Of a stretch of DNA of 45,931 nucleotides, positions 3,986 to 43,159 are shown piece by piece. Location of the stretch: the IMG/VR virus record IMGVR_UViG_3300024999_000168, positions 1 to 45,931 of that record. One strand, given 5' to 3'. Both the position numbers and the translations under genes were made by a program. The stretch's first letter is position 1, and the number at the start of each line of letters is the position of its first letter. This DNA comes from a virus. The notes under the pieces are model-generated. The model made no database searches. It saw only the letters and a program-made list of their open reading frames with translations, and had not been told where the DNA came from.

Positions 3986-4354
3986 TCATCTACACAGGCC
4001 GTCATCTTTAAACTTCTCGATCACTTCCCTTGCCCTTGATTCCCGTTCCTCTTTGGCCCTTGCCTTATCGGCAAGCCACTGATAACAGGCCGCCTCGCCA
4101 TATTGCGAACCGCATGTGCACGGATCGCAGTTGGTGTATGTGACGCCGCTATCTACCTTGGGTATAAGGGTGTCTATAGCGTCAAGCAGCTCTTGTTTAG
4201 TCACACAAGATATCGACGTGGTGCTTACGCCATCTAATGACGGGAATATAGGGTTGGTACCCGGCATGAAATCCAATTCCCATTTTGAATCCTCTGCCGA
4301 TACGGTCAACGGCAGGGTCAAGAGCAGGGCGAAAAATAGAGTGTAGCGTTTCAT
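3986..4354 (-). CDS. Secreted cysteine-rich protein of the early operon
   Basis: A 122-residue protein with a clear Sec signal peptide (MKRYTLFFALLLTLPLTVSA, cleavage likely after residue 20). The mature part has a Cys cluster (NCDPCTCGSQYGEAACYQW) and a charged C-terminal helix. Exported proteins are unusual in early replication operons. It may act in the periplasm, for example in exclusion, but no family is recognised. Confidence 0.65.
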   Translation of the reverse strand: MKRYTLFFALLLTLPLTVSAEDSKWELDFMPGTNPIFPSLDGVSTTSISCVTKQELLDAIDTLIPKVDSGVTYTNCDPCTCGSQYGEAACYQWLADKARAKEERESRAREVIEKFKDDGLCR

Positions 4355-12000: not shown

Positions 12001-12381
12001 GTGGCTATAGCCATTCTCGACCACTCCGGGCGAATTAAAAGCATAACCTATGATCGATTGATGGCCCTCAATCCGTCGCGCCTAAAAACCATACGCGGGC
12101 GGCCATTCCACAGACTGCCGTGGTACGAAGAAAAGGACTCCAAAAAGATAGCCGGAGCGATACGAATGGCGGCGGCGGGAGAGGCGGTAACGATAGAGTT
12201 TCGGGCGATAGATATCAATAATGGAGAGGCCCACCATAGGCGGGCCATATTCGTCCCTCGCGGTGCATTTGTGGCGGTCAAAATTTTTGGGGAGTCAAAC
12301 CATGGCGCGAATGCTTTTAGTGGTTCTGGTGCTCGTCGGGTGCGCGGGGTCTCCGATGGCTGTATCCATGATGAGCATTGA
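12001..12381 (+). CDS. PAS-like sensor protein in the lysogeny operon
   Basis: A 126-residue protein from a GTG start with GGAGAG upstream. Residues 2-95 have the PAS layout: a first strand AIAILDHSGRIKSI, a helical stretch (YDRLMALNPSRL), the G-R-P-F-H-R-L-P-W motif, a long helix with AGAIRMAAAGEAV, then the strands EFRAID and RRAIFVP. PAS domains sense redox, ligands or partners. No output domain is attached. The last 27 codons overlap the lipoprotein gene in another frame. PAS assignment is from pattern only. Confidence 0.5.
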   Translation: MAIAILDHSGRIKSITYDRLMALNPSRLKTIRGRPFHRLPWYEEKDSKKIAGAIRMAAAGEAVTIEFRAIDINNGEAHHRRAIFVPRGAFVAVKIFGESNHGANAFSGSGARRVRGVSDGCIHDEH

Positions 12382-12700
12382 CGAACTCGCTCGGCAAGAC
12401 ACCAATTCGATCTGCGCGGCCTACCATGTCAGCCCATCGGCAAAGATAGAAAGTGAAATCAGGCTGCGCCGGGTCGTGACCGAAGCCGAATGGAAGGAGA
12501 TCGAGACGCGCAGCATCGTGATCGGCATGGGCGAGTGCGCCCTGCTCTGCTCGTGGGGAACTCCTGGGCCGTGGGGCCGCATTCACGATTATGTGCAGGC
12601 CGGCGCCAGTATTCGGCAATACGTTTATAGACCATGCACATCCTGCAGGACCAAATTCGTTTACGTCGAGCGCGGTCGCGTCACGGCGTGGAGCAATTAA
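12302..12700 (+). CDS. Lipoprotein with BamE/SmpA-like fold
   Basis: A 132-residue protein. A short hydrophobic leader ends in the lipobox LVGC, with lipidated Cys14. The C-terminal half (CALLCSWGTPGPWGRIHDY followed by YVYRPCTSCRTKFVYVERG) follows the SmpA/OmlA/BamE pattern: a short helix, GxP, then beta strands ending in a glycine turn. Expressed from the lysogeny operon, it is a good candidate for a surface or periplasmic conversion protein, for example blocking superinfection. The start at 12302 has GGGGAG upstream; its stop abuts the integrase ATG. Confidence 0.7.
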   Translation: MARMLLVVLVLVGCAGSPMAVSMMSIDELARQDTNSICAAYHVSPSAKIESEIRLRRVVTEAEWKEIETRSIVIGMGECALLCSWGTPGPWGRIHDYVQAGASIRQYVYRPCTSCRTKFVYVERGRVTAWSN

Positions 12701-16247: not shown

Positions 16248-16574
16248 TCACGGTCCACTCGGAAGCCTGATAGCCTCCACGATTTTAACAATGCCCATCT
16301 TTCCGATGTAGATTATGCCGCCCATAACCGACACAACCAGAAATGTTACGATGGCAAGGCCCAGCTTTTCCCCGCGCTTTTTATATCTGGAAATGAACCG
16401 ATTATTCTCACGCAAGATCTCGATGCCGGCAGAATAACCAAGGTTGCCGCCCACGTCCTTGACCATGCCCATCAAGTGACCAAGCTCTTCCTGCGCCTCA
16501 TGGGGAAGGTTGCAATGGCATTGGCCTTTTACTGCTGCCGCGATTCGTTCGATGTCCTGTTCTGTGAGCGCCAT
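16248..16574 (-). CDS. Membrane protein with cytoplasmic helical domain
   Basis: A 108-residue protein. Residues 1-70 are soluble, with a CHC motif and a helix (HEAQEELGHLMGMVKDVG). A transmembrane segment follows at about 72-92 (LGLAIVTFLVVSVMGGIIYIG). It sits between the exported-protein cassette and the small lysis-region genes and may act with the holin, but nothing proves this. Confidence 0.55.
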   Translation of the reverse strand: MALTEQDIERIAAAVKGQCHCNLPHEAQEELGHLMGMVKDVGGNLGYSAGIEILRENNRFISRYKKRGEKLGLAIVTFLVVSVMGGIIYIGKMGIVKIVEAIRLPSGP

Positions 16575-16588
16575 GAATTATCCCTTTG

Positions 16589-17488
16589 CTATTCAAAAAT
16601 CCATCGGAATCCATTCGCCATGAATCCCTCACCGATTTTAAACTTTGCCCCCGATGGTGTCGGGGTAGGGGTTGGGGTTGGCGTCGGTGTCGGCGTTGGC
16701 GTGGGAGTCGGTGTCGGTTCACCGTCAACCGCTTCAAGAAGGAAATTATCGGTATATGATACGGCCAATGGAGACGGATCTCCGATGTTACTAGGGATGT
16801 AGAACAAATTATAAGCCGATCCCACCGAACAGCGCATGACGAGGTTATCCCGCGTCAACACCCTGGTACCGTCCATGTCGATGTGGAGATAACCGTTTGC
16901 CGAACCTATGTCGTTCAGCTTGTACGTGATGACGATCAGAACCCAATTGCCCCTATTGAACGTCTGCGCGGAACCGTATGAACCAGATGATGTCAGGGTG
17001 CAGCTGCCGTCCAAATCTGAATTATGGTAAACCACTCCGCGCACGGTGAGCGGTTCGCTGTTGACGCAAGCCAATCCTGAATCCCAAAAAGCCTCGATCT
17101 GTATGGCTTGGTCGGCCTGTCTGAGCCGAGCGAACTTGACTCCAGCTTCATAACACGATGACCCGCCATCCTGAGGCCACGTGGAGGCGATCTTAAAGCG
17201 ATAGGATAGCCGGATGGGAACATTATTTTCAGCGGTCGCATACCCCTGCATGGTCGCCAGAGTGATGGCCTTATAAAGTACCACCGTACCCGAGTGCGTG
17301 CATTTAACGGCCCCGGCACTTCCGTCATAAGTGTCTTCAGAGCTGGCCACGCAGTTACCAACTGTCCAATCGGAGATGTCCAGGTCGTCAAAATTATCCG
17401 ATGATATGGTTGTATCGGCGCTGGCCGCGCCAAACAGAGCGAAGCTAATCGCTATTGCTGCCAGTAGATTTCGCATGTGGGCCATCAT
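16589..17488 (-). CDS. Exported beta-sandwich protein with Pro-Thr linker
   Basis: A 299-residue protein with a Sec signal peptide (hydrophobic core LLAAIAISFALFGAASA, cleavage near residue 24). The mature domain opens with SSDNFDDLDISDWTVGN, a pattern of lectin-like jelly rolls in sugar-binding or sugar-cleaving proteins, and is rich in strands. After VDGE comes a run of Pro-Thr pairs and a 23-residue tail (GAKFKIGEGF, NGFRWIFE). The start at 17488 follows the upstream TGA by two bases. It is the last gene of the exported cassette; glycan binding is a reasonable inference. Confidence 0.75.
   Translation of the reverse strand: MMAHMRNLLAAIAISFALFGAASADTTISSDNFDDLDISDWTVGNCVASSEDTYDGSAGAVKCTHSGTVVLYKAITLATMQGYATAENNVPIRLSYRFKIASTWPQDGGSSCYEAGVKFARLRQADQAIQIEAFWDSGLACVNSEPLTVRGVVYHNSDLDGSCTLTSSGSYGSAQTFNRGNWVLIVITYKLNDIGSANGYLHIDMDGTRVLTRDNLVMRCSVGSAYNLFYIPSNIGDPSPLAVSYTDNFLLEAVDGEPTPTPTPTPTPTPTPTPTPTPSGAKFKIGEGFMANGFRWIFE
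16656..16718. repeat. Degenerate GTNGGN hexamer array coding Pro-Thr repeats
   Basis: About ten hexamers of the form GTCGGN/GTTGGN on the plus strand, coding the Pro-Thr linker of the overlapping gene. The same array type recurs at 19739-19770, 20247-20282 and 21964-21993. Confidence 0.9.
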
Positions 17489-17490
17489 TA

Positions 17491-18060
17491 TCAGCACCCT
17501 TCGCTTGATATAAATACTCCGAGCTCGCGCGCAGTCGTCGAGGCGCCGTTGAACGGGTCCGACAATGTCGGATATGTGTCGCTGCAACTCCAGCGGGTAT
17601 TCGTTCCGGCAGTATAGCCGTACCCGATGGAGGTTCCGCTATCGGCCAGCCAGCCAATGAAGTATGGAGTTCCGGAAACGATGCTCAACGATGCTGTCAG
17701 AGCGAGGCAGTTCCAGGCGTTCGCAACCGTGGTGCCCGTGGATGTCACCGCGAGACGCGCCCCTGGTTCCCCGGCATCATCGGCATAAACCCCGCCGATC
17801 CACGACCGGCTGCTGGCGGTAAAGTACGCCGAAAGCGACACAGCAGAAAAATTCGCCCCGGCCACAAAACGGGCGAACGATCCGACCGCTGTTCCGGTTG
17901 AGCCGGGCGTTGTTCCCGGGTCGTGCCCAAGGGTGCTGACCGCCGAGCCGCCAGAACCGCGCACGAAATCAGCGATGGCCCGTGGAGATAACCCGAAGCC
18001 GGCCAGAGCCGCGATACCACCAGCCGCGAAGGCCCGCCTTAAAAAGTCGCGCCGGTTCAT
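17491..18060 (-). CDS. Exported beta-sandwich protein with Tat signal
   Basis: A 189-residue protein beginning MNRRDFLRRAFAAGGIAALA, a twin-arginine signal with the RRDFLRR box and likely cleavage after the A-I-A near residue 30. The mature part is a beta domain (VGSFARFVAGANFSAVSLSA, then GGVYADDAGEPGARLAV and GTPYFIGWLADSG). It shows the same pattern as the Sec-exported product of 21503-22111, so the two look paralogous. Tat substrates are exported folded. It overlaps the next gene upstream as ATGA. It belongs to the cassette downstream of the tail fibre. Confidence 0.75.
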   Translation of the reverse strand: MNRRDFLRRAFAAGGIAALAGFGLSPRAIADFVRGSGGSAVSTLGHDPGTTPGSTGTAVGSFARFVAGANFSAVSLSAYFTASSRSWIGGVYADDAGEPGARLAVTSTGTTVANAWNCLALTASLSIVSGTPYFIGWLADSGTSIGYGYTAGTNTRWSCSDTYPTLSDPFNGASTTARELGVFISSEGC

Positions 18061-19418
18061 CGCGTGCCCTCCACCTGGACAGTGACCGCCGTAACCGTGC
18101 CGCTGGGAGCGCCCAGGAGGATGCGCAGGGTGCCGTTGGCGGCGATGGCTGTATCAGATACCGTCCCGGCGTCCCAACCTCCATTGCAGGTTATGGCGCC
18201 GCTCAAAATGGTTGCGCAGTTGGCGCCGGCGCTGTCGCACTCCTGTAGGTCGGCCGTGATCGATGGCGTTGATCCTTCTGCGAAGCATTTAACCGCGGAG
18301 ACCGTGATCGCTTCCGGGGCCTGGAACCAGTTGTAATCGTCGGCATCTGCCGGGTCGCTGATCGTGCGCGATTGCAGAACTGGGTAGGCCACGGACGGGG
18401 TAGGGTTGCCCGCCACTCCATCGCCGTTTGTAAAAGTGATGCCGTCGCCGTTGGCGATGGATCTGGCCAGGGGGGAGCCGGAATTGTTTACCACGATACC
18501 GCTTGATGACAGCGTTTGGTAGGCGTCGGGGATATTCAGGGCATACCATTGATCGGTGCCATAAACGAAGTCCAGCACTGTGCCCACAACGCAGGTATAA
18601 TCCGTGCTCCGATTGGCCGCCGTGATTTCGGACGAGGTAAGGTCAAATACTGTCGCATAATCGCATCGCACCCGCAGGCGTCGTCCCGCGGTGATCGCAC
18701 TGCCACCGTGGTCAAATCCGGTGATTGTGGTCGTGTCGGCAGTGGAATAATGTTCTGCCGCCGATACATCCGGGGTCGCGTCAGCGGCTCCGAAGGCCGT
18801 CCATGCCTGATATAAAAACGGAACGTCTCCCGAGTCGTCATCCAATATCCCCGTTATGTCGCCTGTCCCGCCGGTTGAATTGCATACGATGCCGACTCCA
18901 GCGGTATATGTGCAATAAAGGCCGTCGGTCATGGTTCCAGCGTTGAGCGCCGACAGGCTCCCGATAGAATAGGCCGCCTTAAACTCTGAGCCGGTCAGGG
19001 CCTTGAGCGTGTTGCTATCCGAAAAAACCGTGATCTCATCGGCGTTGATCGTCCCCGTAAGCCGCGCCACGGTCGCCGGAAGCATTTGGATCGGAAGGCC
19101 GACGAGGCGCCAGACGCCAGCGGTGGCGAAGTCATCCGGCCTGATAACCGTGAAATAAGTGGCATCCTCTGCCGTGGTGCCGTCGGCGTCGAAAACGTAG
19201 TCATAGCGGGTTCCGGTCGTTCCGCTCAAAACAGCAACCTGGGCCGTGTCTCCATCTGCGAGGTTGTTCGGATTGGGATCGCTCGCCCCGGTGATGTCGA
19301 GGGCATCCAGGTCTGTTCCTGATATGCCGCCCAGGTGGGAAGTGCATCCGTAGTGCCGGGCGTAGGCCGGGGATGCAAGGAGGATTAAAAGGATTACCGC
19401 TGATAAAAGTCTTTTCAT
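18057..19418 (-). CDS. Large exported fibre-like protein
   Basis: A 453-residue protein with a textbook Sec signal (MKRLLSAVILLILLASPAYA). The mature part has low-complexity Gly/Thr/Asp-rich segments as in phage tail fibres (SGIVVNNSGSPLARSIANGD, then ITFTNGDGVAGNPTPS). A C-terminal beta domain with paired Cys (CFAEGSTPSITADLQECDS) resembles decoration or receptor-binding modules. No catalytic motif is seen. A signal peptide on a fibre-like protein is unusual because fibres normally assemble in the cytoplasm. Confidence 0.75.
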   Translation of the reverse strand: MKRLLSAVILLILLASPAYARHYGCTSHLGGISGTDLDALDITGASDPNPNNLADGDTAQVAVLSGTTGTRYDYVFDADGTTAEDATYFTVIRPDDFATAGVWRLVGLPIQMLPATVARLTGTINADEITVFSDSNTLKALTGSEFKAAYSIGSLSALNAGTMTDGLYCTYTAGVGIVCNSTGGTGDITGILDDDSGDVPFLYQAWTAFGAADATPDVSAAEHYSTADTTTITGFDHGGSAITAGRRLRVRCDYATVFDLTSSEITAANRSTDYTCVVGTVLDFVYGTDQWYALNIPDAYQTLSSSGIVVNNSGSPLARSIANGDGITFTNGDGVAGNPTPSVAYPVLQSRTISDPADADDYNWFQAPEAITVSAVKCFAEGSTPSITADLQECDSAGANCATILSGAITCNGGWDAGTVSDTAIAANGTLRILLGAPSGTVTAVTVQVEGTR

Positions 19419-20062
19419 GGCTTACACACTCCACATGGTTTGTATCCCTGGGCCAAAGCCTCTGCTGGCGTGGCGAATCGAACGGTGCAGGAAAGGCAAT
19501 CGTGGTATCGGCAACCGGGCTTGTGGAACGCCTTGGTGAGGATGTTTCCGGAATAGGGCGCCCGGGATTCATCTGGCTGAACGGTCACGATCCAGAGTTT
19601 TCCTGCATCCTCGATTTTGTATTCCCCGGCGCCCATATCTATGACGCCGTGACCGGATGTGTTCAGCAGCGTAAAGCACTTTGGCGGCGCTGGTGTGGCC
19701 GTGGGTTCGGGAGTGGGCTCAACGGTAGGCTCCGAAACAGGCGTCGGCGTAGGCGTCGGTGTCGGAGTTGCGCTCACAAAAATCACCTCATTGCTGTTGC
19801 CGCTCACATTCGTCCCGGAATAGGCGCGCACCACGAAGTAATATTGAGTGTTGTCGGCCAGGTCGTAAATCGTGGCTGTGGTCCTCGTTCCGGTCCAGAC
19901 CGGTGCGGAATAGTCGTAATTCCCGCCGTGAGTCCGCTGGTAGAGCCGATAGCCGTCAACAGGGGGTTTGTTCGCATCCCATTGCAGCGTGACCTGGGCG
20001 GCTTGCGCGACGGCGCAAAACGCGCACGTTATGAGCAAGGCGATCAAGAGGGCTTTCTTCAT
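19415..20062 (-). CDS. Exported FN3 - Pro/Thr linker - Ada-type zinc protein
   Basis: A 215-residue protein. Sec signal at 1-21 (MKKALLIALLITCAFCAVAQA). Residues 22-98 form a fibronectin type III domain (VTLQWDANKPPVDGYRLYQR, then TTATIYDLADNTQYYFVVRA). A Pro/Thr/Glu linker follows. The C-terminus (FHKPGCRYHDCLSC to GYKPCGVCKP) matches the Ada-type metal-binding module also found at the ends of some extracytoplasmic nucleases. An exported protein pairing an adhesion domain with a zinc knuckle is unusual. Role unknown. Confidence 0.75.
   Translation of the reverse strand: MKKALLIALLITCAFCAVAQAAQVTLQWDANKPPVDGYRLYQRTHGGNYDYSAPVWTGTRTTATIYDLADNTQYYFVVRAYSGTNVSGNSNEVIFVSATPTPTPTPTPVSEPTVEPTPEPTATPAPPKCFTLLNTSGHGVIDMGAGEYKIEDAGKLWIVTVQPDESRAPYSGNILTKAFHKPGCRYHDCLSCTVRFATPAEALAQGYKPCGVCKP
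19692..19770. repeat. GTNGGN-type array coding the Pro/Thr/Glu linker
   Basis: A degenerate hexamer array, most regular at 19739-19770, coding the linker between the FN3 and zinc domains. Confidence 0.8.
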
Positions 20063-20162
20063 GCTTCAGTATCCTTTCGCGCTGGAGTACACTTTCCACT
20101 ATGCCGGCGATGCGTTCGAGTTCTAATGTTTTGACGTACCCTATATAAATCGTTTCCGGCAT
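19956..20162 (-). CDS. Possible small overlapping protein
   Basis: A 68-residue ORF starting MPETIYIGYVKTLELERI, a plausible soluble protein filling the 133-base gap at 20063-20195. GGAGG lies close to the ATG, with tight spacing. It overlaps the FN3-zinc gene by 107 bases, so the C-terminal half may be a shadow. Confidence 0.3.
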   Translation of the reverse strand: MPETIYIGYVKTLELERIAGIVESVLQRERILKHEESPLDRLAHNVRVLRRRASRPGHAAMGCEQTPC

Positions 20163-20195
20163 TCTGCCTCCAGGGTGCGTTCACACGTTCATTCC

Positions 20196-21503
20196 CTACC
20201 TAATCGATAAGCCGCTCCCGCCGCCCCCGGACATTGTTGTTGGCCCGGGTGTCGGCGTCGGAGTGGGCGTTGGGGTCGGCTCTCCATCCACGTATTCATA
20301 CGCCCCACGGTCCCACGTTCCGTCTGCCCCGCGAGTGCTTCCGAGCATGTCAGTGTTGTAGGTCGCGCCAATACTATCGTCTCCGCCAGCGGTAGCCGCC
20401 GCCAGGGTGAAATCATCCCCGGCATAATTTGTGAATGTAGAAGTACTTATGCTTTCCTGATCGTGCGTCTCGCCCAGGTCTGATGAGTAGGCGTTATAAT
20501 CATGTTCGCCTCTCATGGACGGCGCAAATGTGCAAGCGTAAAAAATATTGTTGTACTCGCGCCAGCCTGTACTGCCACCCATTACATCAAACCTGCATTC
20601 GCTCCTGATTACTGTATTATTATAAAAATACATATTTGCCCAGGAGGATTCAGAATCACAAGCAATCAAGCCATTCGATTCTCCGGGGTAGTCGAGAAAT
20701 ACGTTTCCATAAATGTACCAGTTAATAGGCCCTGAAGGACTATCTAATGTGGCGATTACAGCGGTTCCCTCGACCGTATCAAACACATTGTATCTAACCG
20801 TTGTGTTGCTTGTTGTACCGCAAGACCATGACTCTGAGTGCTCTAATGGAACTGATTCGTTTCTTGCAAGATATGATTGCTCAAGTAGCCAATAATCCCC
20901 GCCCCTTGACAATATGTGGGTTCTTCCAGAGTCATGCAGATAGCAATAGGCTATAGTAATATAACTCGCGGCTGAAGCCGCATAAATTAGGTCATTATTT
21001 GGCCCATCTCCATCATCACCTCCACCCTGAAAATCTATGTACCTAAAGGTGATATAACTAAACCCTGTGACGGTTGCGCATTTTGTAGTTGAAGATATTC
21101 TGATACCATGTCCTGACGTGCTCGACGATCTCGTTTGTCCATCTACTTCCCAATAGTTTGATCCGAAAGTCAAACCGGAAGTAATATCAGCGACACCATC
21201 ACCGTAATCATTATCCCAATCGCCTGCGGTTCCGTGGGCTGAGGCTGTTGCCTTTTTGATGTAGATATAAGTTGATCCTGATGCAGCAGTATTAAACGTC
21301 CCCCCAGTGTATGTCCCATCCCCAATCCAGATGGTATCACCACGACCAGCCCTGCCCTCTGCCGTAGTGATTTGATCGCAAGCATCCGACCATGAAGAGC
21401 ACGTGGCGCTTGATCCACCGTCGAGCACGTATTGGTCTGCGGCTTTGGCATTAGAGCAGATAAGCAACAAACACAAACAAAAGGCTGTAAAGACACATTT
21501 CAT
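20196..21503 (-). CDS. Exported right-handed beta-helix protein
   Basis: A 435-residue protein from the ATG at 21503 (TGATG overlap with the gene before, GGAG upstream). Sec signal MKCVFTAFCLCLLLICSNAKA. The mature part starts DQYVLDGGSSATCSSWSDAC and repeats N/G/T-rich rungs (ITFRYIDFQGGGDDGDGPNN, ITIAYCYLHDSGRTH, NNTVIRSECRFDVMGG) as in pectate-lyase-like beta helices, the fold of phage tailspikes and polysaccharide depolymerases. VDGE, a Pro-Thr run and a Gly/Ser-rich tail end the protein. Possible glycan-degrading enzyme; no catalytic residues assigned. Confidence 0.75.
   Translation of the reverse strand: MKCVFTAFCLCLLLICSNAKAADQYVLDGGSSATCSSWSDACDQITTAEGRAGRGDTIWIGDGTYTGGTFNTAASGSTYIYIKKATASAHGTAGDWDNDYGDGVADITSGLTFGSNYWEVDGQTRSSSTSGHGIRISSTTKCATVTGFSYITFRYIDFQGGGDDGDGPNNDLIYAASAASYITIAYCYLHDSGRTHILSRGGDYWLLEQSYLARNESVPLEHSESWSCGTTSNTTVRYNVFDTVEGTAVIATLDSPSGPINWYIYGNVFLDYPGESNGLIACDSESSWANMYFYNNTVIRSECRFDVMGGSTGWREYNNIFYACTFAPSMRGEHDYNAYSSDLGETHDQESISTSTFTNYAGDDFTLAAATAGGDDSIGATYNTDMLGSTRGADGTWDRGAYEYVDGEPTPTPTPTPTPGPTTMSGGGGSGLSIR
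20247..20282. repeat. GTNGGN hexamer array coding Pro-Thr linker
   Basis: About six degenerate hexamers coding the Pro-Thr run near the C-terminus of the beta-helix protein. Confidence 0.85.
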
Positions 21504-22111
21504 CAGAACTCCATCCAAATAGCCAGTTCATAGTCTGTAACTGTCCCCACACCAGATAGATCTGCATCTGGCACAAAATCTGTTTCGGCGTAAAGATATG
21601 AAATCCCTGAGCTTGTGCTTCCTGATGTGCATACTCCGGTCGCTGAAGATTCTTTCAGTATTCCGGCCCAATATGTCCCGGCAGCCAGCGATTCATTGAT
21701 AGCTGTATCAGATGCAGCGCCGCAATTATCATAGAGGTATTTTGCTGCGCCATTAGCTATCAATGTCGTTGGATGCCCCCCCGAGTCGTTATATAGTACA
21801 AATATTACTTCTCGCGTGTCATTTTCGGAATCCGTAATCAAAGCCTCTATACTGGCGGTTGTGCCAGCACAGCCGATTGTTATTTTGCGTAGTTGGTAAG
21901 TGAAGGCCGTAGCCTGAACAGACTCCGATGATCCTGTTTCATTTCCATACGATCCTGAACATGGTGTGGGTGTCGGTGTCGGTGTTGGTGTCGCGCCGCC
22001 AGAACTTCGTGCCTTGATAACCGCTGCTTGTCTCTCTTGCAGAAGCCCGGCAGAAACAGAGTACGCGAAAACCCCTATTACTACTAAAATAATCCATGGT
22101 ATTCTTTTCAT
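21503..22111 (-). CDS. Exported beta-sandwich protein (Sec), paralogue of the Tat protein
   Basis: A 202-residue protein with a Sec signal (MKRIPWIILVVIGVFAYSVSA), a short basic segment, a Pro-Thr linker at about residues 41-50, then a beta domain. Segments VQATAFTYQLRKITIGCAG, EVIFVLYNDSGGHPTTLIA and AAGTYWAGILKESSATGV line up in order with those of the Tat-exported 17491-18060 product. The linker sits before the domain here, not after it as in the beta-helix and jelly-roll proteins, which shows modular use. Confidence 0.75.
   Translation of the reverse strand: MKRIPWIILVVIGVFAYSVSAGLLQERQAAVIKARSSGGATPTPTPTPTPCSGSYGNETGSSESVQATAFTYQLRKITIGCAGTTASIEALITDSENDTREVIFVLYNDSGGHPTTLIANGAAKYLYDNCGAASDTAINESLAAGTYWAGILKESSATGVCTSGSTSSGISYLYAETDFVPDADLSGVGTVTDYELAIWMEF
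21964..21993. repeat. GTNGGN hexamer array coding Pro-Thr linker
   Basis: Five near-identical GTGTNGG-type hexamers coding Pro-Thr pairs near the N-terminus of the mature exported protein. Confidence 0.85.
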
Positions 22112-22123
22112 AAAATCCTCATG

Positions 22124-24484
22124 TTACGGAGGCGTTGCCTCAGCCCACCCGGTACAGGTTGCCATCCAAGAGTTTGCCGCACGATATTGGAAGACGCACA
22201 TGGCACCAGAGGTTGACGAAGTAATGTTTTCATCCTGAGCGGCAGCAAGTCCGTTCATTACAATGGTGTCAGCGGTTCCTGTGGTAAGCGGGTCAATAAT
22301 GTTCGCGTTCGCCACTTCCAGGACGTAAGTAAAATTCATACCCACGGCAGGGTCTAGAAGCGCGGCGGTCCCGGCAGCGTTGGCTATGAAGGTGCCGCCG
22401 TAAAGATTTCTTCCAGTGAAGTTCGTTGAAAAGTTGTCCGGGTCGTCGATTACGGGGGTTTGAGCGCCGCCCGTGACGATCCCGGTTGTAGCCGTCCCGA
22501 TGGTTCCGAAGTCGAGCAGAGTGACTCCGGTTGAAGAAGATATGACAGCCGTGTTCGACGTATCGTCGAGGTTGATGTTGATATCCTCGTCAGAACCGTT
22601 GCCCTGTCCTAAGATGGTAACGGCTCCATCGTTATCCGTTGTGATTAAAACCCCTCCGACGCCCATGGTAAGCCCAGCCCCGCCTACCGTTATGTCTCCA
22701 GTGAAGGTCGTGTCGGGCGTAATTGTCACGCTCGCTGCACCGCTTGCGGCTATCTGAACTACCTCGTTGGAATCTACACCGATTACAGAGATGTCCGTTC
22801 CAGCCGCGTCAGCCTCAGAGTAGATATACCCGGCGTTAGGAAGCCTGATAGCCCCCGCATCGGCTGGATCGGCACCGATGGAGATATTCCCATCAATGAT
22901 AACCGTCCCGCCGTCAGACACAAAGGTATGGTCGGTTACATCGGCAGAGCCATAATCCATATCTACCGCGCCGGTAGCATCGATTGAATCCACTCCGGTC
23001 AAAGCACCTACCGTCGCGCTTGGAGCGGATATGTTTTTGGTTGTCTCCCATTGGTCATCGGACTCGTCGAACTGAGCGATCAAGGTCTTTGCGCCGCCCT
23101 GGTTTGCGTAGATCAGAACATCGCTGTTCTCTGCGCCATCTGCTCCGTCAACGTAGGCGGCCTCGAAAGATGCACTCCATTTGTCGGTGCCGGGGTTGTC
23201 GGAGTCCCGGAGGTCAAAACCTGGGGCCGCCGAGGCAGCAAGGGTTAGGCTTTTGGCGGTCGTGTCGCCGTCAGCGTCTACCGCAAAACCTGCCGCGCCT
23301 GCGCTCAATGTCGTTGCTGTGATGGCAACCGGCGTGCCAGAACCGATAGCAGCACTCGGGGATGCCCATGAACCACCAATCAATTCGCCCTGAACGTAGG
23401 CGGTTGTGGCGACAGAGGTATCATTATCATCCGTTGCCGGCGTGGTGGCCGTTGCCGCACCGATGGCTCCACCAGCAAAAATCAATGCCCCGGTGCCGCT
23501 TTCATCTGTGACGAGCGTTCTAAGCTCTCCAGAGGTATCAATGTCGGTGGAGGCGAGGCCAGATGCCGCAGCGGTGTCAAGATCGCTCAGAACCCCGTCT
23601 TCGCACTTTTTCCACTGGCCCTCGCTGTCGTCGTAGAAAATGCCTCCGCCAGTAGCAGAGAAAGTCGAGCAATCGGTGAGCGTGTCGGTCGGCTGGCCCT
23701 CGATTCCGGTTTCATCGATGACGAGTTCCGATGTTAGGGTTCCGCCAGTAAATGATCCGGCGCCTTCCGCATCCGCACCGTCAGCAAATCCGGCCGGCAC
23801 ACCGAGAAGTTGGGACCAATGAACTTTTGCGCCGGTTCCGTTCGGCGCCCCGGCATTGATGGAGTCGTTCATCTCTTCCAGGGCCGGGCCTGCCTTGGTG
23901 GCCGTCCATAGATTGTCGGCATCGTCAAACGAAACGTAATCATCATCGACTCCATCTCCGACCTTGGAGCCTGTCAAACTTCCGTCCGCAAGGTCAGCCA
24001 AGTCCGCATCGGCAGCCTGTGCTCCGAGAGTTGACAGCGCTTCCGTGGCATTGTCGTCATCGGTAAGCGATAGACCGAAAGCCGTTATGCCCAGCTTGGT
24101 CTGGATGTAGGTTGCGATCTCTGAAAGTAAAATCTTGATTTTGGCGTAGCTGTTCTGCGCATCTTCACCGATGATCGCGTCGCCATCTTCCAGGGCCGAT
24201 CCCTCTTGAGAAACCGCGCTGATCTCGCCGGCCTGGTTGTCGTGGATGGCCGCGGTGTCGGCCCCGCCGGTCGCGTCGCGGATCTCTTGCAGTGTGATCG
24301 GCAGGCCGTCTCCGTCATCAAGGGTCATGGTGTTGGTTTCTTCGGTGATTGATCCGGTGGCCCCGATAGTCGCCGAGTTTACCGACAAGTCAGTATTCGA
24401 TCCGATAGGGGGCGGAGCGGGCGGACCGGCGGAAGCCGGAACAACGAGCGCCAGAATTAAAGAAGCGATAAATAGTCTTTTCAT
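22124..24484 (-). CDS. Very large exported fibre-like protein
   Basis: A 786-residue protein starting MKRLFIASLILALVVPASA, a Sec signal. An in-frame GTG two codons upstream is an alternative start; AGAGG favours the ATG. The mature region is rich in Asp, Ala, Gly and Thr, with fibre-type repeats (SKVGDGVDDDYVSFDDADNL, TATTPATDDNDTSVATTAYV, VTITPDTTFTGDITVGG) and a C-terminal globular part containing two Cys. Sequence style is that of tail fibres, while the signal peptide points to export. No intramolecular chaperone or lyase motif is seen. Confidence 0.75.
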   Translation of the reverse strand: MKRLFIASLILALVVPASAGPPAPPPIGSNTDLSVNSATIGATGSITEETNTMTLDDGDGLPITLQEIRDATGGADTAAIHDNQAGEISAVSQEGSALEDGDAIIGEDAQNSYAKIKILLSEIATYIQTKLGITAFGLSLTDDDNATEALSTLGAQAADADLADLADGSLTGSKVGDGVDDDYVSFDDADNLWTATKAGPALEEMNDSINAGAPNGTGAKVHWSQLLGVPAGFADGADAEGAGSFTGGTLTSELVIDETGIEGQPTDTLTDCSTFSATGGGIFYDDSEGQWKKCEDGVLSDLDTAAASGLASTDIDTSGELRTLVTDESGTGALIFAGGAIGAATATTPATDDNDTSVATTAYVQGELIGGSWASPSAAIGSGTPVAITATTLSAGAAGFAVDADGDTTAKSLTLAASAAPGFDLRDSDNPGTDKWSASFEAAYVDGADGAENSDVLIYANQGGAKTLIAQFDESDDQWETTKNISAPSATVGALTGVDSIDATGAVDMDYGSADVTDHTFVSDGGTVIIDGNISIGADPADAGAIRLPNAGYIYSEADAAGTDISVIGVDSNEVVQIAASGAASVTITPDTTFTGDITVGGAGLTMGVGGVLITTDNDGAVTILGQGNGSDEDININLDDTSNTAVISSSTGVTLLDFGTIGTATTGIVTGGAQTPVIDDPDNFSTNFTGRNLYGGTFIANAAGTAALLDPAVGMNFTYVLEVANANIIDPLTTGTADTIVMNGLAAAQDENITSSTSGAMCVFQYRAANSWMATCTGWAEATPP

Positions 24485-24492
24485 ATCCACCT

Positions 24493-24966
24493 CTACCGTA
24501 CCAGCTTTATGTAAATGTCGAATGTCGCGCTCACCGTGGCCTGGTTTGTAACCGTGACAGTCAAAACAGAATTGACGCCCCGGTATTTATCAACCGTGCC
24601 CTCGGTCGTTCCCGTGGCCTGTATCAAGCTATCCGCCCCATCGTCGTAAATCTCACTGCCGAGAGCATCCACGACATTAACATCGGCAGCGTCCGGGGCT
24701 GTAATCCCTGCCACCGACCAAATTTCGTAAAAGTAAAACCCGCTGGCCTGGTACTCTTTCGGCAGGCCGGCGCTGATCGCCGCCGTGTTGATTGTGGTCG
24801 CCGGCACCGAACCATCGTTCGCGTCTCCGACACAGGCCAGCTTGATAACGAGCTGGTTTTTATCAGCAGATAGCTGATACTGCGTGACCGTTACGGTTCC
24901 GGCCGCGAGAGCCGCCGGCACGATAGCCAGGAGCATGATAACCGTGAGAGGAAATATCTTTTTCAT
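24493..24966 (-). CDS. Exported small beta-rich protein
   Basis: A 157-residue protein from the ATG at 24966 (AAGGGA upstream), with a Sec signal MKKIFPLTVIMLLAIVPAALA. The mature part is strand-rich (GTVTVTQYQLSADKNQLVIK, then VLTVTVTNQATVSATFDIYI) and resembles small phage structural or decoration proteins. First of the eight exported genes after the tail fibre. Confidence 0.7.
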   Translation of the reverse strand: MKKIFPLTVIMLLAIVPAALAAGTVTVTQYQLSADKNQLVIKLACVGDANDGSVPATTINTAAISAGLPKEYQASGFYFYEIWSVAGITAPDAADVNVVDALGSEIYDDGADSLIQATGTTEGTVDKYRGVNSVLTVTVTNQATVSATFDIYIKLVR

Positions 24967-24980
24967 TTCACCAATCCCTT

Positions 24981-25907
24981 CTATTGTTTGCGCAAAAATA
25001 CTGCGTGGATACCGCAAGTGTTGGCGCTGGCCGTTGAATCGCTTCCATCGCTGGTTGACCATAACCTCAGCCCGAACGAGCCGTCCCCGGTTATGACAAA
25101 TATTCCTGTAACGTTAAGGTAAAACGTGGCGCCGGCCCCGACGCTTGGATGCGATGCTATGAAGTTTTCGGATGCGCTTGCCATCTGATAGGTGGCCGTA
25201 CCGGTTCCGGCAAGATTGGTAGCCACATGCCCAGCAGTCCCGCCTTTTACTGCCTGAAGGTTTCCGACCGCCAAAATTATATCACCGACGACAACGTTCC
25301 CGACAACTAAGGCAGCTACTTCTTCCCCGGTAAACGGTATGGTTTCTACGCCAGAGTTTGTCGAAGAGAGCGCCGCATTCGTCGGCATGTTCGAATCGAT
25401 CTGCGCGGCGCTCTTGGTGATCGCATGCAGCTTTGCAAAGTCAGCGGCCAGCGCGCCCTGGTTGTGCAATTGAGATACTTCGGCGGCCGTGGCTGTGGCG
25501 TCATCGCAAAGCCTGTCGATCTCTGTGGACGTCGATCCTAAAGCCACATCTTCATTAAGCCGTGGCCCCGTAAGGCGCTTATTGGTTGCGGTCTGCGAAC
25601 TGTTGTTATCAAGGATGTCTCCAGCCGAAGTGCCGCCGATTGTGCGGCCACCAAACGAAAGAACGGCGCCGGTCGTGTCGTTGTAGGTGGCGAGCGTCAC
25701 CCATCCGTAGGTGGCGGAGTAAATCCTTATCGATATGACCGGGCTCGCCGAGGTATCGTTCCAGCACATTCCGGCGAAAGGATTCGATGGCGCGCTGGTT
25801 CCGCGGTTCAGGCTGGCGACCGCCGCAAAGTCGTCTTCGAGCGTTTCGGCGAGGGTCGCCATGTCGAGCGGAGACCCTGGGATTTCGAAATTCGTTACCT
25901 GGCTCAT
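24981..25907 (-). CDS. Tail fibre protein
   Basis: A 308-residue protein without a signal peptide. The N-terminus (TLAETLEDDFAAVASLNRG, PFAGMCWNDTSASPVISIRI) is typical of phage fibre proteins that describe grid-like beta regions. The C-terminus carries a compact beta domain. The start overlaps the stop of the tip protein as ATGA, the classic place for the fibre after gpJ. It differs from the following eight genes in lacking an export signal. Confidence 0.75.
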   Translation of the reverse strand: MSQVTNFEIPGSPLDMATLAETLEDDFAAVASLNRGTSAPSNPFAGMCWNDTSASPVISIRIYSATYGWVTLATYNDTTGAVLSFGGRTIGGTSAGDILDNNSSQTATNKRLTGPRLNEDVALGSTSTEIDRLCDDATATAAEVSQLHNQGALAADFAKLHAITKSAAQIDSNMPTNAALSSTNSGVETIPFTGEEVAALVVGNVVVGDIILAVGNLQAVKGGTAGHVATNLAGTGTATYQMASASENFIASHPSVGAGATFYLNVTGIFVITGDGSFGLRLWSTSDGSDSTASANTCGIHAVFLRKQ

Positions 25908-28900
25908 GTTTCAAGTACTCCGTAACCCTTGGCGACGCCAGAAATGGTCCGCGCCACTCCCGCCCCGCCGTTTGTGAAAGCGATGTCAAACCCGGTTTCG
26001 TCCAGGTTGGTGATAGCGTAGTAATCCGCTTCTTCACCGTTAAAGACCGATATGCCGATCTCTGGTACTGCGAAGAAAGCCGGCGAAAATGCCACCCTGG
26101 AACCAGAAGACAGCACGTCCGCGCCGAATGGTAAAACCCTATCGGGCATGTCGATTGTCACGGTCACGGCCTCAAGTATGGGCGTGATGCTCGGGGCCGT
26201 ACCCGAAAGGCGCGCCATGAACTTGTAGGCCCTGGCAGTATAATCTCCGACCAAGAACGGCTTCCATGCGCTCCATGTCGGTGTCCCAGCCGGATCGTCT
26301 TCGGTCGTTGCCACATAAAGCTCAACGTTGTATTGGCTCTCTTGGGCACCATAAAGGTTTTCGGCCTCGTAAAGGTCCGTCAGGTCGTAAAGATCGGAGG
26401 CGGTGTCTTGTCCGCTGATCGAAAGTGATGCCGTAAGGCGCGAAGTAAAAACGGCCTCAAGGTCAACGTAGCCGGTAAATTCAAATGTGCCTGTCTCGGT
26501 TTCCGGATCGGTGAGCACGAGCCCTCCCATGGCCACCGACGCGGAAACATTTGTTCCGGTACCACTCCACGATGGGTCGATCTGCGAAAACTCCTCGACA
26601 AAATTTAACCCGGCAATACCAGCAATATTGGTGCTGGCGGTCGATGCTGTTGCGCTCTCGCGGCCCGAGCGGTCAACCGCTTTGATCATGTAGGTGCCCA
26701 CCATGGCAGCCACGGCAATGCTGGTTGTGGGTCCGGCATTGGCCACCACGTCAACCGAATTCGCCCAGGTCGCGCCGACCGTGAGCGGGCTCCATCGGAT
26801 GCGGTAATGAGATAAATCAAGATCGGTATTTGCCGTCCAGGTCAGCCGCGCTTCGCTTCCGACGATGTTGCAACCGAAGTCTTCCACATCCGCCGGGTCC
26901 TCGCTCTGGCCCTCTACGGCATCAAAGACAGATGAGGACCAGTCCGAAGCCACCCCGTAGACACTCACCACCTGGGCGGCAATCTCGTAGGATTCACCCT
27001 CTATCACGCCATTGATGATGCCGGTCACACCGACATCTGCCGGCCATTCGACCTGGCTCCATCTCGTCGTTCCTGTGGCCCGGTAGCGCAGGCGATATTT
27101 TCCGATGCGGATTGTGCTGCTGGTGGCCGGGGCTACGGTCGCCAGAATCCGGGCTCGGATGAGTGCCCCGGTCACCTCAAGTGCCCTGGTCCCGCTCTCC
27201 ACATTGCTGATCGATGGTGCTGGCGGCGCAAGGCGTGTGATGTCTACCGGGCCAGTGATTCGCGTGTTGAATGCCGGGATTGATTCCGTGTCGGCGTTGT
27301 AAATCGATGGCGCAAGATCCACACAGGTCAAAAGAGCGCAAAAGTCTTTCGTGCGGGTTATGCTTTTAACCAGCAGCCGGGCGGTCATCAATGTGGCCTC
27401 GCCGAACATGGCGAGATCGCCCACCGCCGGGCCGTAGGACGCCGGAACCGATCCATCAACGTAGAATGTCGATGTCACAGTGTCTTCGGTGACCGACGTG
27501 GCCGAAAGAACGACGCTGTCACCGTTTGCCTTGCGGAACCGGCAGGCGTAAGAGGTGCCGGCCAGCATGGCGAACTCTTCGTCGAGCGTGACACTGATTA
27601 TGGTCCCGCCAACGGTGCCGCCATCGAATTCAACGCCGCCGGAGTCGTCGAAGGCCACGCCGCCGGAGTCGTCGAAAAACCCGTCCTCTGTCGTTTCTTC
27701 TGTTACCGAAATAGATTTGACGCGGCCCCAGGCCGTACCCCATTTAGGAACGTCGTGGCCGCAATGGATCATGGACCCGCGCCGACAGGCAAGGTGCTCG
27801 AAGTCGCAATAAAAGGAGTACGTCTCGGGCCGGAGGATCATCTGCGCCAGATGGTAGCGCGCAAATCGATAGATCAAATCCGGGTCCGTCACCCCTGGGA
27901 ATTCGATGCTCTCGAAAAGCGTTGCATTCGCCTCGGTGTAGCCATCAGAATAAACTATGCGCTCGTCCCATTCGTAATCGGCGTCCGCGTTCACAAATTT
28001 TACCCGCAGGGCGTGCGGCATATCAAAAAGCATTTTCTCGGAAGAAAAGCCCCAGGAGTTGCGCGGGGTGAAATGCTGCGAAATGGGCCGGCCATCATAA
28101 TCATTGATCACCATCCACAGGCCGTCGATGATCGATGGCGCGGCCCTGCCGGCAACGGCCACGTCCATCAGGGTGTCCCAAATCGATGCGCGGAAATCAC
28201 GGTACATATTGAAGCTGTACCCGCGATCTTCGCACTCATCGAACCAGTCGGCCAACTGATCGTCATTTATCTGTGACGCCGTGCGCTTCAAGGCGTTGGC
28301 GTTGCCGGTCAAAACGTGGCGGAAAAGAGCTGCCGGATTACTACTATAACCCCACGTGCTCCAGGTCGATCCGTCCCAAACCGGAACGAATGAATCACAA
28401 ACCGCGTTGACGTTGTCGATCACATTGGAAAGTTGTTCGGTGGCCTTGATTCGAAAAGCCGTTACCGTCAAGTGCTTTTCGAAGTTGATGGGGTTATCGT
28501 TGAGCGTGCCGCGCAAGTACTGCCAAGTCATTTCGTCAAAAATCATATCATCGACGGAATCTTCGGTCACGCGGCTGATGGCCACCTCATAGGCCTTCGT
28601 CCGGTCCACCTTCCAGCGTTGAGAGAATCGTTGCACTTCCGGGCTTTTTGCTGTCCATGCCGATTCTTCAATCGTTATGGTTCCAGCCGTGATATTGACC
28701 TGATCGCCGACCAGCGAGCACACCAGGCCCGTTCGATCTGTGTCGATGATATTGGTCACAGTATCATACCCCATCACTGGCCAAGCGATGTCGGTGCTGG
28801 TATCAACATAAAGCGTCCTGGTCGTGTATTCTCCAATTCGCACAGACAATGGGCGCTCTGTTCTGCCTCCGTATGCCCTGATAACCCCATCGTGGCAGGC

Positions 28901-29977
28901 GTAGATTGAAAATGTTTCCCCTGGCACGAGGTATCCTAATTCATCGTAATAACTTCCAGGGACCATGGGGCCGAGCGCATAGGTCGCTGATGATTGCTCG
29001 GCGAACGCCACCGTACCGTCTGTGTAGGTCCAGGCCGATGTGCCCACTTCACGATAGCGAATCTGCGCGGTCACGGTAGTTTCTGCCCGAAACGCTCCGC
29101 TCCGGCTGCTGTTACCGATTCTGACCAGGCCTCGGTTGAAATAAATGTCAACTGACAACTCATCTACGTTTTCCGGCGCCGTCCTGGTTATCCATCCAGA
29201 AGAGTACTCCACGAGTGCTCCGACCGGCGTTTGTTCTACCTGTGATGGAAAAAGGTCTATCGTGTCTTCGCCGTCATATCCCAGGTAGGTGCGAACCTCG
29301 ACACCCTCGAAAGACGAAAGTGGGGTATCTCCGATCTTGATCGTTCCGACCCTTATGGGCGAATATCCCCAAACCAGCAGCAGGCGAAGATATTCGTCGC
29401 CGCCCTCTATTTCTGTGAATGTCTTTGCCCCCAGGCGCGGGTAAACCTTATGCCGTCCAAGAAGTTGAGGGATCGGCCCCCAGGGGTCGGCCACGTTGCG
29501 AGCACCGCTTATCGAATAGGTCGGGCTGTCGCTGTACGAAGTATTCCGAGCATCGGCCGGCCTCACAGGCGCTATGGCGTTGACCAAGAACATTCCGGCC
29601 GTGGATACAGCCGCCGCCGCGAAAGCCCCGGCCATTGGGCCATAGGCAGTTGCTGCGAGTCCTCCGGTATATGCTGCTGCCGCGATAACAACGATGGTCA
29701 TAAGCACGTGCAGCGGGTTTTTCCCCTCGCCGCCGTGCAGCTTGGTATAAATCAGCAGATGATCGTCGGCCTTTGGCGCCACCAGCGCCCAAGACGAGGC
29801 CGGAACCGGGTATCCGTTCAGGTCCACGCAAACCGCATCGCTCACGCGCCCACGCATGGCCTCAGAGACAATGGCCGCTATGTCTCTGCCGGCCTGGATC
29901 TGACGGACGATGGGCGCCGATATTGCGAGCGGCCTCGTCGTTAGCGTGAGGCTATTTTGCGTAGCGGTAGATGCCAT
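25904..29977 (-). CDS. J: Tail tip/host-specificity protein (gpI-gpJ-like fusion)
   Basis: A 1357-residue protein. Residues about 75-140 hold a hydrophobic, Ala/Gly-rich stretch (VLMTIVVIAAAAYTGGLAAT) like the membrane-like region of lambda gpI, followed by the J-type core (LGRHKVYPRLGAKTFTEIEG, VWGYSPIRVGTIKIGDTPL). FN3-like domains follow at about 930-1110, then a beta-rich C-terminus that would contact the receptor. The start is set at the ATG 29977, which gives a 26-base overlap with the NlpC gene; the frame is open further up. It forms the tail hub and tip. Confidence 0.88.
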   Translation of the reverse strand: MASTATQNSLTLTTRPLAISAPIVRQIQAGRDIAAIVSEAMRGRVSDAVCVDLNGYPVPASSWALVAPKADDHLLIYTKLHGGEGKNPLHVLMTIVVIAAAAYTGGLAATAYGPMAGAFAAAAVSTAGMFLVNAIAPVRPADARNTSYSDSPTYSISGARNVADPWGPIPQLLGRHKVYPRLGAKTFTEIEGGDEYLRLLLVWGYSPIRVGTIKIGDTPLSSFEGVEVRTYLGYDGEDTIDLFPSQVEQTPVGALVEYSSGWITRTAPENVDELSVDIYFNRGLVRIGNSSRSGAFRAETTVTAQIRYREVGTSAWTYTDGTVAFAEQSSATYALGPMVPGSYYDELGYLVPGETFSIYACHDGVIRAYGGRTERPLSVRIGEYTTRTLYVDTSTDIAWPVMGYDTVTNIIDTDRTGLVCSLVGDQVNITAGTITIEESAWTAKSPEVQRFSQRWKVDRTKAYEVAISRVTEDSVDDMIFDEMTWQYLRGTLNDNPINFEKHLTVTAFRIKATEQLSNVIDNVNAVCDSFVPVWDGSTWSTWGYSSNPAALFRHVLTGNANALKRTASQINDDQLADWFDECEDRGYSFNMYRDFRASIWDTLMDVAVAGRAAPSIIDGLWMVINDYDGRPISQHFTPRNSWGFSSEKMLFDMPHALRVKFVNADADYEWDERIVYSDGYTEANATLFESIEFPGVTDPDLIYRFARYHLAQMILRPETYSFYCDFEHLACRRGSMIHCGHDVPKWGTAWGRVKSISVTEETTEDGFFDDSGGVAFDDSGGVEFDGGTVGGTIISVTLDEEFAMLAGTSYACRFRKANGDSVVLSATSVTEDTVTSTFYVDGSVPASYGPAVGDLAMFGEATLMTARLLVKSITRTKDFCALLTCVDLAPSIYNADTESIPAFNTRITGPVDITRLAPPAPSISNVESGTRALEVTGALIRARILATVAPATSSTIRIGKYRLRYRATGTTRWSQVEWPADVGVTGIINGVIEGESYEIAAQVVSVYGVASDWSSSVFDAVEGQSEDPADVEDFGCNIVGSEARLTWTANTDLDLSHYRIRWSPLTVGATWANSVDVVANAGPTTSIAVAAMVGTYMIKAVDRSGRESATASTASTNIAGIAGLNFVEEFSQIDPSWSGTGTNVSASVAMGGLVLTDPETETGTFEFTGYVDLEAVFTSRLTASLSISGQDTASDLYDLTDLYEAENLYGAQESQYNVELYVATTEDDPAGTPTWSAWKPFLVGDYTARAYKFMARLSGTAPSITPILEAVTVTIDMPDRVLPFGADVLSSGSRVAFSPAFFAVPEIGISVFNGEEADYYAITNLDETGFDIAFTNGGAGVARTISGVAKGYGVLET
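27633..27676. repeat. 24-base duplication inside the tip gene
   Basis: A 20-base identical segment occurs at 27633-27652 and 27657-27676, coding the repeated peptide FDDSGGV in tandem. It is in the central part of the tip protein. Confidence 0.85.
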
Positions 29978-30353
29978 AGATCTTCGATTTCCAAACCGGT
30001 GCGTTGTAGGGCTCCACGGTGGAGTTGATGCCCTCCATGACGTGAAGCATTTGGCCGCGGCCACAAACGATTCCAACGTGCGTGTTTACCTGGCCGCGCC
30101 GAAAAATAACGATGTCAAAATCTTGTGGATCTCCTACGCGCTCCCAATCGTCCAGGCCGGCCTTGATCTCGCGTGATACGCGGGCCAGTGAGCCCAATGA
30201 GAGGTCCTTTAGGGCACCAGCTACCATGGGTAGTCCCCGACCTAAAACCTCTTCGTAAACGAGTCGGACAAGCCCCCAACAGTCGCAGCCGAAGCGGTCG
30301 CGGCCATCGAAGGCGAAGGGGATGCCGGCGTATAGGTCGGTCCAGTGTCTCAA
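29952..30353 (-). CDS. NlpC/P60 tail assembly protein (gpK-like)
   Basis: A 133-residue cysteine peptidase of the NlpC/P60 type: catalytic Cys25 (FGCDCWGLVRLVY), His92 (THVGIV) and a third polar residue, His104. In siphophages this protein is in the tail tip and trims peptidoglycan during DNA entry. A TTG start at 30353 follows directly on the upstream TAG. Length equals the catalytic domain alone. It is the only recognisable wall hydrolase in the window. Confidence 0.85.
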   Translation of the reverse strand: MRHWTDLYAGIPFAFDGRDRFGCDCWGLVRLVYEEVLGRGLPMVAGALKDLSLGSLARVSREIKAGLDDWERVGDPQDFDIVIFRRGQVNTHVGIVCGRGQMLHVMEGINSTVEPYNAPVWKSKIYGIYRYAK

Positions 30354-42283: not shown

Positions 42284-43159
42284 CTACCTGTAGCGCATCG
42301 AATTTATGGCCTTGGCGGCGTTTATTCTTCTTTTGATATTATTGTACGCGTCTTTATTGAACTCAAACCTGATCGCTTCCTTAAATGTTCCGGCAAGTTG
42401 ATCGGTTTGAATGGTTTTTGTTGTCTTATGTATTTTTTCTGAATTTGAAAAATTGAGCAAAGATCCCCAATTAAATATTATACTGTCCATAACCAACTTT
42501 GTATTATTGCAAATTGATGAGTATTCGAATGTATCGGGCTTGGTGCACCCCTCTGTCATTTTATTATAGTATTTTACAAACTTACCAATACCATCAATAT
42601 CATTAATATCGTGAGCGTTTCTTGCGTAATTAATTATTTCAATCATTAAAATTCTATATAGCTGTAGCCCCCTATGTTTTGAAAGATCTACCATGAAGCG
42701 CCCAAATGCTTCCCTATAAAGCTTGTCTCTGCCGCGCAGCATATTGAAAGCAACCACAGCTTGGGGCGAAAAACCATCGCTAAAAATTACAGAATTCAAC
42801 AAACTGAAGGTTGTGCGGCTTATGCCGCAACAAAGATCAGCGAATAGAAAATCAATTTTTTCTTTAATGTGCCACGCCATAACTACGTCGGCGAGATCTC
42901 CGTTAATGACGTTTATTTTGTTTTTTCTCAAATCCATAACCCGCTCTGCATTGTTTTCGACCGCATATAAATTCAAAGGCTTAAAACCCTTGTCGATGGC
43001 TACCAGCCCGTCTATGTTTTCTGGACCGGGCAAGTAAACCACGGTGCAATCAGATACTTTTTTACCTAATTTTTCGAGCCTATCTATGGCGTTATTCCAT
43101 ATTCTGCGCCGCCAGTTATTCTTTGCGCCAAATCTATAAGATTCCCTGCCCGTACCCAT
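42284..43159 (-). CDS. AT-rich methyltransferase-like protein (moron)
   Basis: A 291-residue protein inserted between TerL and portal. Residues 35-115 look like a Rossmann methyltransferase: TVVYLPGPENIDGLVAIDKG as motif I, LYAVENN with an acidic residue for SAM ribose, VINGDLADV, and DFLFADLCCGIS as motif IV. The C-terminal half is Asn/Lys-rich and of no known type. Base composition is clearly more AT-rich than all neighbours, a sign of recent acquisition. GGGAGG precedes the ATG. A DNA or RNA modifying or anti-defence role is inference. Confidence 0.6.
   Translation of the reverse strand: MGTGRESYRFGAKNNWRRRIWNNAIDRLEKLGKKVSDCTVVYLPGPENIDGLVAIDKGFKPLNLYAVENNAERVMDLRKNKINVINGDLADVVMAWHIKEKIDFLFADLCCGISRTTFSLLNSVIFSDGFSPQAVVAFNMLRGRDKLYREAFGRFMVDLSKHRGLQLYRILMIEIINYARNAHDINDIDGIGKFVKYYNKMTEGCTKPDTFEYSSICNNTKLVMDSIIFNWGSLLNFSNSEKIHKTTKTIQTDQLAGTFKEAIRFEFNKDAYNNIKRRINAAKAINSMRYR

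Follow-up and report, generated by a model that had tools for sequence, protein, structure and literature searches.

Organization of the locus

The window analysed here covers positions 1 to 45,931 of an uncultured virus record (IMG/VR record IMGVR_UViG_3300024999_000168). Its late operon lies on the minus strand and encodes terminase, portal, protease, capsid, tail and tape measure proteins, and it continues through an NlpC/P60-like protein to the tail tip protein gpJ (25904-30076; phrog_31, E = 4.6e-112) and a 308-residue fibre (24981-25907). This fibre has a gpJ-adjacent N-terminal domain and no export signal, and it is the reference for signal-bearing versions found elsewhere. A 291-residue methyltransferase-like gene (42284-43159) is located between portal and terminase. 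Packed behind gpJ and the fibre are eight genes on the same strand, here called g1 to g8, that run from position 24966 down to 16589. The block ends at a gene for a 108-residue protein with one membrane segment (16248-16574, minus strand), which is holin-like by eye and has no family match in searches that included NCBIfam and PADLOC. The lysis region presumably lies behind this small membrane protein downstream of g8.

Neighbours within the block mostly overlap or nearly abut, and the widest gap, between g4 and g5, is about 133 bp. A consensus scan found nine promoter-like sites in the block versus 10.3 expected by chance, so late coexpression of g1-g8 with the tail genes is the simplest reading, in agreement with a preliminary description of this DNA that had placed them in one operon with the tail. 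An overlapping ORF that it had called doubtful (19201-19572 or its like) indeed has no support. None of the PADLOC anti-phage defence models matched, and an Rfam scan returned nothing.

This arrangement bears on the idea that g1-g8 are lysogenic-conversion morons, which are prophage-expressed surface proteins that alter the host like those of lambda lom and bor. The lambda lom gene directly follows gpJ and its product is exported, and the window genes share both its position and the export of its product. However, lom and bor are single prophage-expressed genes with no sequence relation found to g1-g8, no Ail/Lom or other outer-membrane family matched in Pfam or NCBIfam, and the tight packing inside the late operon, where the consensus scan detects promoter-like sites only at chance level, makes a moron origin very improbable. 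Export signals beside gpJ are not unheard of, as lom illustrates, but an eight-gene run of them is unprecedented as far as we have found.

Export signals

N-termini were evaluated with a heuristic rule (not SignalP) that scores a positive start, a hydrophobic core and a small-x-small cleavage site, with a threshold of at least 5. Every g1-g8 protein has an N-terminal K/R followed by a hydrophobic stretch of 12-15 residues and a small-x-small site, and all eight exceed the threshold by this heuristic score (5.7-7.6). Seven signals are of the Sec type. The eighth, in g7, is a Tat signal that scores above the curated NCBIfam threshold for TAT_signal_seq as well (TIGR01409; 16.9 versus 16.7 bits). 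The n, h and c regions and the cleavable signal of Sec- and Tat-secreted proteins are thus recognizable throughout the block by the heuristic score and, for g7, by TIGR01409, which bears out the seven Sec signals and one Tat signal of the preliminary description. None of the eight contains a lipobox. The listed g8 ORF begins at 17587, and its signal methionine is located further in (g8 start 17476/17488).

Such signals are rare among neighbouring genes. Viral contigs, bacterial genomes and cultured phages supplied about 150 related gpJ loci, in which 21 of the 1,027 genes upstream of gpJ score at least 5 (2%); none of the window's own structural genes do so. Eight signals in eight genes would have a probability of about 3e-14 at this background if genes were independent. 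A search for similar signal-bearing runs after gpJ, as the preliminary description had proposed, recovered them in closely related contigs. The idea that many phages have exported genes in series behind gpJ was considered and rejected: once near-identical contigs and other close relatives are set aside, exported genes are absent from most gpJ loci or limited to lysis genes. The nearest named gpJ relative (47% identical) belongs to a prophage in a Magnetococcales MAG, and there are no signal-bearing genes within 3.4 kb downstream of this gpJ.

In some of the pairs of relatives compared, though not in all, the signal has changed more than the start of the mature protein. Between g1 and its homologue in contig L109, the signal is 47% identical versus 77% for the first 60 residues of the mature protein, and the different sequence in L109 is still a signal. 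For g5, the corresponding values are 33% and 87%, and in some relatives the signal has been swapped for an unrelated one. That signals are retained despite drift or outright replacement of their sequence suggests that export is under selection, and the g1-g8 products are almost certainly exported, judging from these sequence comparisons. As the score is heuristic, the N-terminal stretches might instead be read as hydrophobic tails used inside the virion. The combination of positive start, hydrophobic core, small-x-small site and Tat motif, together with the substitution of unrelated signals in relatives, renders this reading extremely unlikely.

TPTPTP linkers are a common feature of secreted multi-domain proteins. 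In this redundant set of loci, 27 of 241 signal-bearing genes encode one, versus 1 of 2,623 others. Two ORFs outside the block also have export-type N-termini. One at 3986-4354 (minus strand) reads MKRYTLFFALLLTLPLTVSA, and one at 12221-12700 (plus strand), whose status as a gene is uncertain, has a lipobox-like start (MARMLLVVLVLVGC).

Mature domains of g1-g8

The mature parts of these proteins appear to be domain-shuffled members of the virion-fibre or adhesin type, with beta-helix, FN3, jelly-roll-like and fibre-like elements. All eight genes are on the minus strand. The first, g1 (24493-24966), encodes a small beta-rich protein of 157 residues with the Sec signal MKKIFPLTVIMLLAIVPAALA, cut before A. 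A long fibre-like protein of 786 residues follows in g2 (22124-24484; Sec signal MKRLFIASLILALVVPASA, cut before G). The 202-residue g3 product (21503-22111; Sec signal MKRIPWIILVVIGVFAYSVSA, cut before G) continues after its signal with a conserved GLLQERQAAV segment, a TPTPTP linker and a variable C-terminal domain. A right-handed beta helix, a TP linker and a Gly-rich tail make up the 435-residue g4 protein (20196-21503; Sec signal MKCVFTAFCLCLLLICSNAKA, cut before A). The 215-residue g5 protein (19415-20062; Sec signal MKKALLIALLITCAFCAVAQA, cut before A) combines an FN3 domain (Pfam fn3, 3.8e-8), a TP linker and a C-terminal Ada-like metal-binding domain (Ada_Zn_binding, 4.7e-5). In g6 (18057-19418; 453 residues, Sec signal MKRLLSAVILLILLASPAYA, cut before R), there are fibre-like modules in common with L012, L018 and L114. 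The Tat signal MNRRDFLRRAFAAGG, with its MNRRDFLRR start, precedes a possible jelly-roll domain in the 189-residue g7 protein (17491-18060); this assignment and the jelly-roll likeness of g3 are by eye only. Finally, g8 (16589-17476; 295 residues, Sec signal MRNLLAAIAISFALFGAASA, cut before D) is jelly-roll-like and has a long TP linker. The adhesion or glycan-active folds anticipated by the preliminary description are recognizable in g4, g5 and g8, the last through a weak polysaccharide lyase 14 (PL14) match, and as fibre-like sequence in g2 and g6.

An imperfect minisatellite at 16655-16717 encodes a TPTPTP linker, and such linkers are present in g3, g4, g5 and g8. These repeats are a likely site of domain exchange among the four genes. 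Short Gly-rich tails (GGSGLSIR, GPGFTLQ, SSGIGLLQ, GGMTVGQ and RGGSYR) follow the linker or helix in beta-helix and related proteins of the window (g4), L004, L010, L012, L016 and L024.

The g4 protein is lyase-like in fold. It has a weak Pfam Beta_helix match, and its structure model (pLDDT 65) most closely resembles the lyase Pel9A in a Foldseek search (1ru4, E = 2.5e-6) with a low TM-score of about 0.46, and it also resembles PL6 lyases and phage depolymerases. This modelled likeness to PL9/PL6 lyases, the weak PL14 match of g8, and the FN3 domain and TP linkers, which are typical of secreted carbohydrate-active proteins, are consistent with exported enzymes that degrade the capsule or the biofilm matrix surrounding an infected cell and thereby aid release and spread. 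Attack on capsule or matrix was one option of the preliminary description, of which the lyase-like fold of g4 stands. However, no catalytic Lys/Arg pair of the lyase kind is invariant across eight g4 relatives, the PL14 match of g8 is below the curated cut-off, and five of the eight proteins have no enzyme-like match, so we consider a set of matrix enzymes improbable. The structure model of g8 (pLDDT 33) was discarded.

A second line of similarity connects g4 with virions. Its best match among viral models (E = 8.9e-7) is a Cellulophaga phage structural protein, gp049 of phi17:2, which is annotated as virion structural by similarity to phi4:1, begins where mature g4 does and lacks a signal. 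Beta-helix relatives in L014 and L015 are likewise without one.

Relatives and module exchange

Comparison with related contigs indicates that this block is exchanged as modules. Contig L004 represents almost the same phage, with flanks of 96% identical DNA, yet it has no match over window positions 20003-24434, where its replaced middle contains different genes that each bear a signal. A sister phage (L024) also has signal-bearing genes at this place. The recurring order among relatives is a long fibre-like protein, a protein of 200-280 residues, a beta-helix protein and then others. In cultured phages, direct searches with g2, g4 and g6 gave no match, and no near DNA match of the g1-g8 block was found.

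Parts of the cassette also occur with other tail types. The DNA of L010 is 95% identical to window positions 21969-23299; the C-terminal half of g2 is 88% identical there, the first 53 residues of g3 are 96% identical before a different remainder, and g5 is also common to both. L010 is a short-tailed phage with a P22-type portal (phrog_156), Hc3 head closure (phrog_578) and DNA ejection (phrog_598) proteins. The 107-kb L012 is contractile (tail sheath phrog_165, E = 1.7e-156) and has relatives of the g2 C-terminus (74% identical in parts), the g3 start and g5; the g3 likeness is by eye and was missed by the profile search. No gpJ match (phrog_31) is present in the L010 or L012 records, which are possibly fragments. 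Lipobox-type signals are found in the g2-type relatives of L010 and L018 and in one further cassette gene each of L010 and L012. A short ORF of L012 (4882-5991; ...YNIQVADNYNYFANGVLVHNC), beside a homing-endonuclease-like ORF, resembles an intein end.

The g2 C-terminus and g3 N-terminus are both of the window type in the window, L010 and L012, and both differ in L004, L013 and L024. Since the two change together, there is a hint that the g2 and g3 proteins may contact each other.

A possible envelope-directed function

The occurrence of relatives in lambda-type, P22-type and contractile-tailed phages makes it probable that the cassette acts at the exterior of the infected cell and is not a normal component of one kind of tail. 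The g2, g3 and g5 relatives in two phages without detectable gpJ, together with the lipoprotein variants, point to the host envelope. We tentatively propose, giving it somewhat less than an even chance, that g1-g8 form an exported cassette aimed at the host envelope whose receptor masking would protect progeny from debris. Of the options in the preliminary description, surface remodelling of the infected cell comes closest to this proposal and fits best.

In such a scheme, late-expressed virion-fibre- and adhesin-type proteins would pass the inner membrane through the Sec and Tat pathways. They would be made alongside the tail proteins, probably shortly before lysis, and would reach their mature form in the periplasm and at the envelope, with a lipid anchor in some relatives. 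Their target would be the host envelope and not a docking site on one particular tail type. With variable domains of glycan-binding or lyase-like type, they could cover or trim surface glycans, and released progeny and rival phages might then be kept from sticking to the dying cell, debris and matrix. Several observations weigh against this proposal. None of the window's eight proteins has a lipobox that would hold it on the envelope, and several of the modules have the unsignalled virion relatives noted above. The cassette amounts to 8.4 kb of late genes, whereas the exclusion proteins described so far are of small size and many of them are expressed early.

The nearest precedent by analogy may be Llp of phage T5, a superinfection-exclusion lipoprotein, and the proposed masking would operate in its manner while being built from fibre modules. 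Exclusion proteins are described as preventing adsorption both to infected cells and to post-lysis fragments, and Llp is phage-encoded, exported and active at the host outer membrane (PMC9586334). It is, however, one small lipoprotein, whereas g1-g8 encode eight large multi-domain fibre-type proteins in a late tail operon; a lipid anchor of its type is absent from the window's eight and present in the L010, L012 and L018 relatives. The host Sec system also serves other late phage proteins, among them the exported endolysin Lys44 of fOg44 and SAR endolysins (PMC6116005). Those are lysis enzymes, and no lysis domain is found in the g1-g8 block. Tail fibres, collar fibres and beta-helix tailspikes of Caudoviricetes resemble the cassette in their domains, their place behind gpJ and their C-terminal module shuffling, and Collar and S74 domains are found in signal-bearing relatives. 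Export signals are absent from ordinary fibres, in contrast to every one of g1-g8.

Signal-bearing tail fibres in other phages

Many phages, rhizobial as well as uncultured, have the N-terminal domain of the window's gpJ-adjacent fibre, mostly in unsignalled form. About 12 other phages and prophages, one of them the isolated Bradyrhizobium phage ppBdUSDA122-1, have a signal directly ahead of this domain, and their fibres carry Collar (PF07484) and Peptidase_S74 domains. In phages of Bradyrhizobiaceae, gpJ is followed by two such genes in tandem. The L170 fibre reads MLKRLLLAFATALGLSGPAPA and then, past the cleavage site, SQYDFGTIVPE, compared with M-SQFDFGTIVPE in the unsignalled L056 fibre, so cleavage can yield the unsignalled N-terminus. 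By score, 79 loci have the fibre without a signal, 14 have it with one and two (L051 and L240) are mixed; with these two judged signalled by eye, signalled and unsignalled copies were not found together in one locus. The signalled fibres of rhizobial siphophages are genuine tail-fibre proteins that take the place of the unsignalled form, a case independent of the window cassette.

These rhizobial fibres keep alive the reading that virion fibres mature in the periplasm, where real tail fibres or spikes needing oxidizing or periplasmic folding would be completed before joining finished virions at lysis. It is the main rival explanation for g1-g8, for which we find it possible but doubtful, and it fits the rhizobial fibres better. 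Signals on ordinary gpJ-adjacent fibres, the mutual exclusion of the two forms at a locus and the likeness of g4 to an unsignalled Cellulophaga virion protein with the same start all speak for it. For the window, however, the cassette is common to three tail types, an unsignalled fibre of its own is retained, lipobox variants are hardly possible as virion parts, and assembly after lysis would meet strong dilution. Cysteine content is 1.6% in the window versus 1.05%, and cysteine parity gives no clear sign of disulphides (five even and three odd in g1-g8, mixed in relatives). Periplasmic assembly of virion appendages, another option of the preliminary description, is accordingly favoured by the rhizobial fibres and disfavoured by the spread of the cassette over tail types. 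Envelope function in the cassette and periplasmic maturation in the rhizobial fibres may represent one strategy put to different uses.

In the textbook view, tailed phages assemble in the cytoplasm, and the proteins that they export have a role in lysis or exclusion. An exchangeable multi-gene cassette of exported fibre and adhesin proteins that occurs with three tail types, together with signalled true fibres in rhizobial phages, would either add an extracytoplasmic stage to virion assembly or reveal a large class of envelope-directed phage proteins. That some tailed phages build part of the virion outside the cytoplasm, with fibres that are exported by Sec or Tat, folded in the periplasm and added to virions when the cell lyses, strikes us as rather unlikely; if true, it would constitute a second assembly compartment, undescribed for tailed phages in the open-access literature searched. 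In that literature, which represents part of the field, no description of signal-bearing fibre cassettes was found, nor of any module with the composition that the preliminary description had thought to be new.

Two wider surveys were carried out. A Collar-domain survey of 199 genomes returned mostly small non-phage proteins. A fibre-domain survey of 398 genomes of one order gave 11 matches in 8 genomes, with signals only in the prophage that had already been identified.
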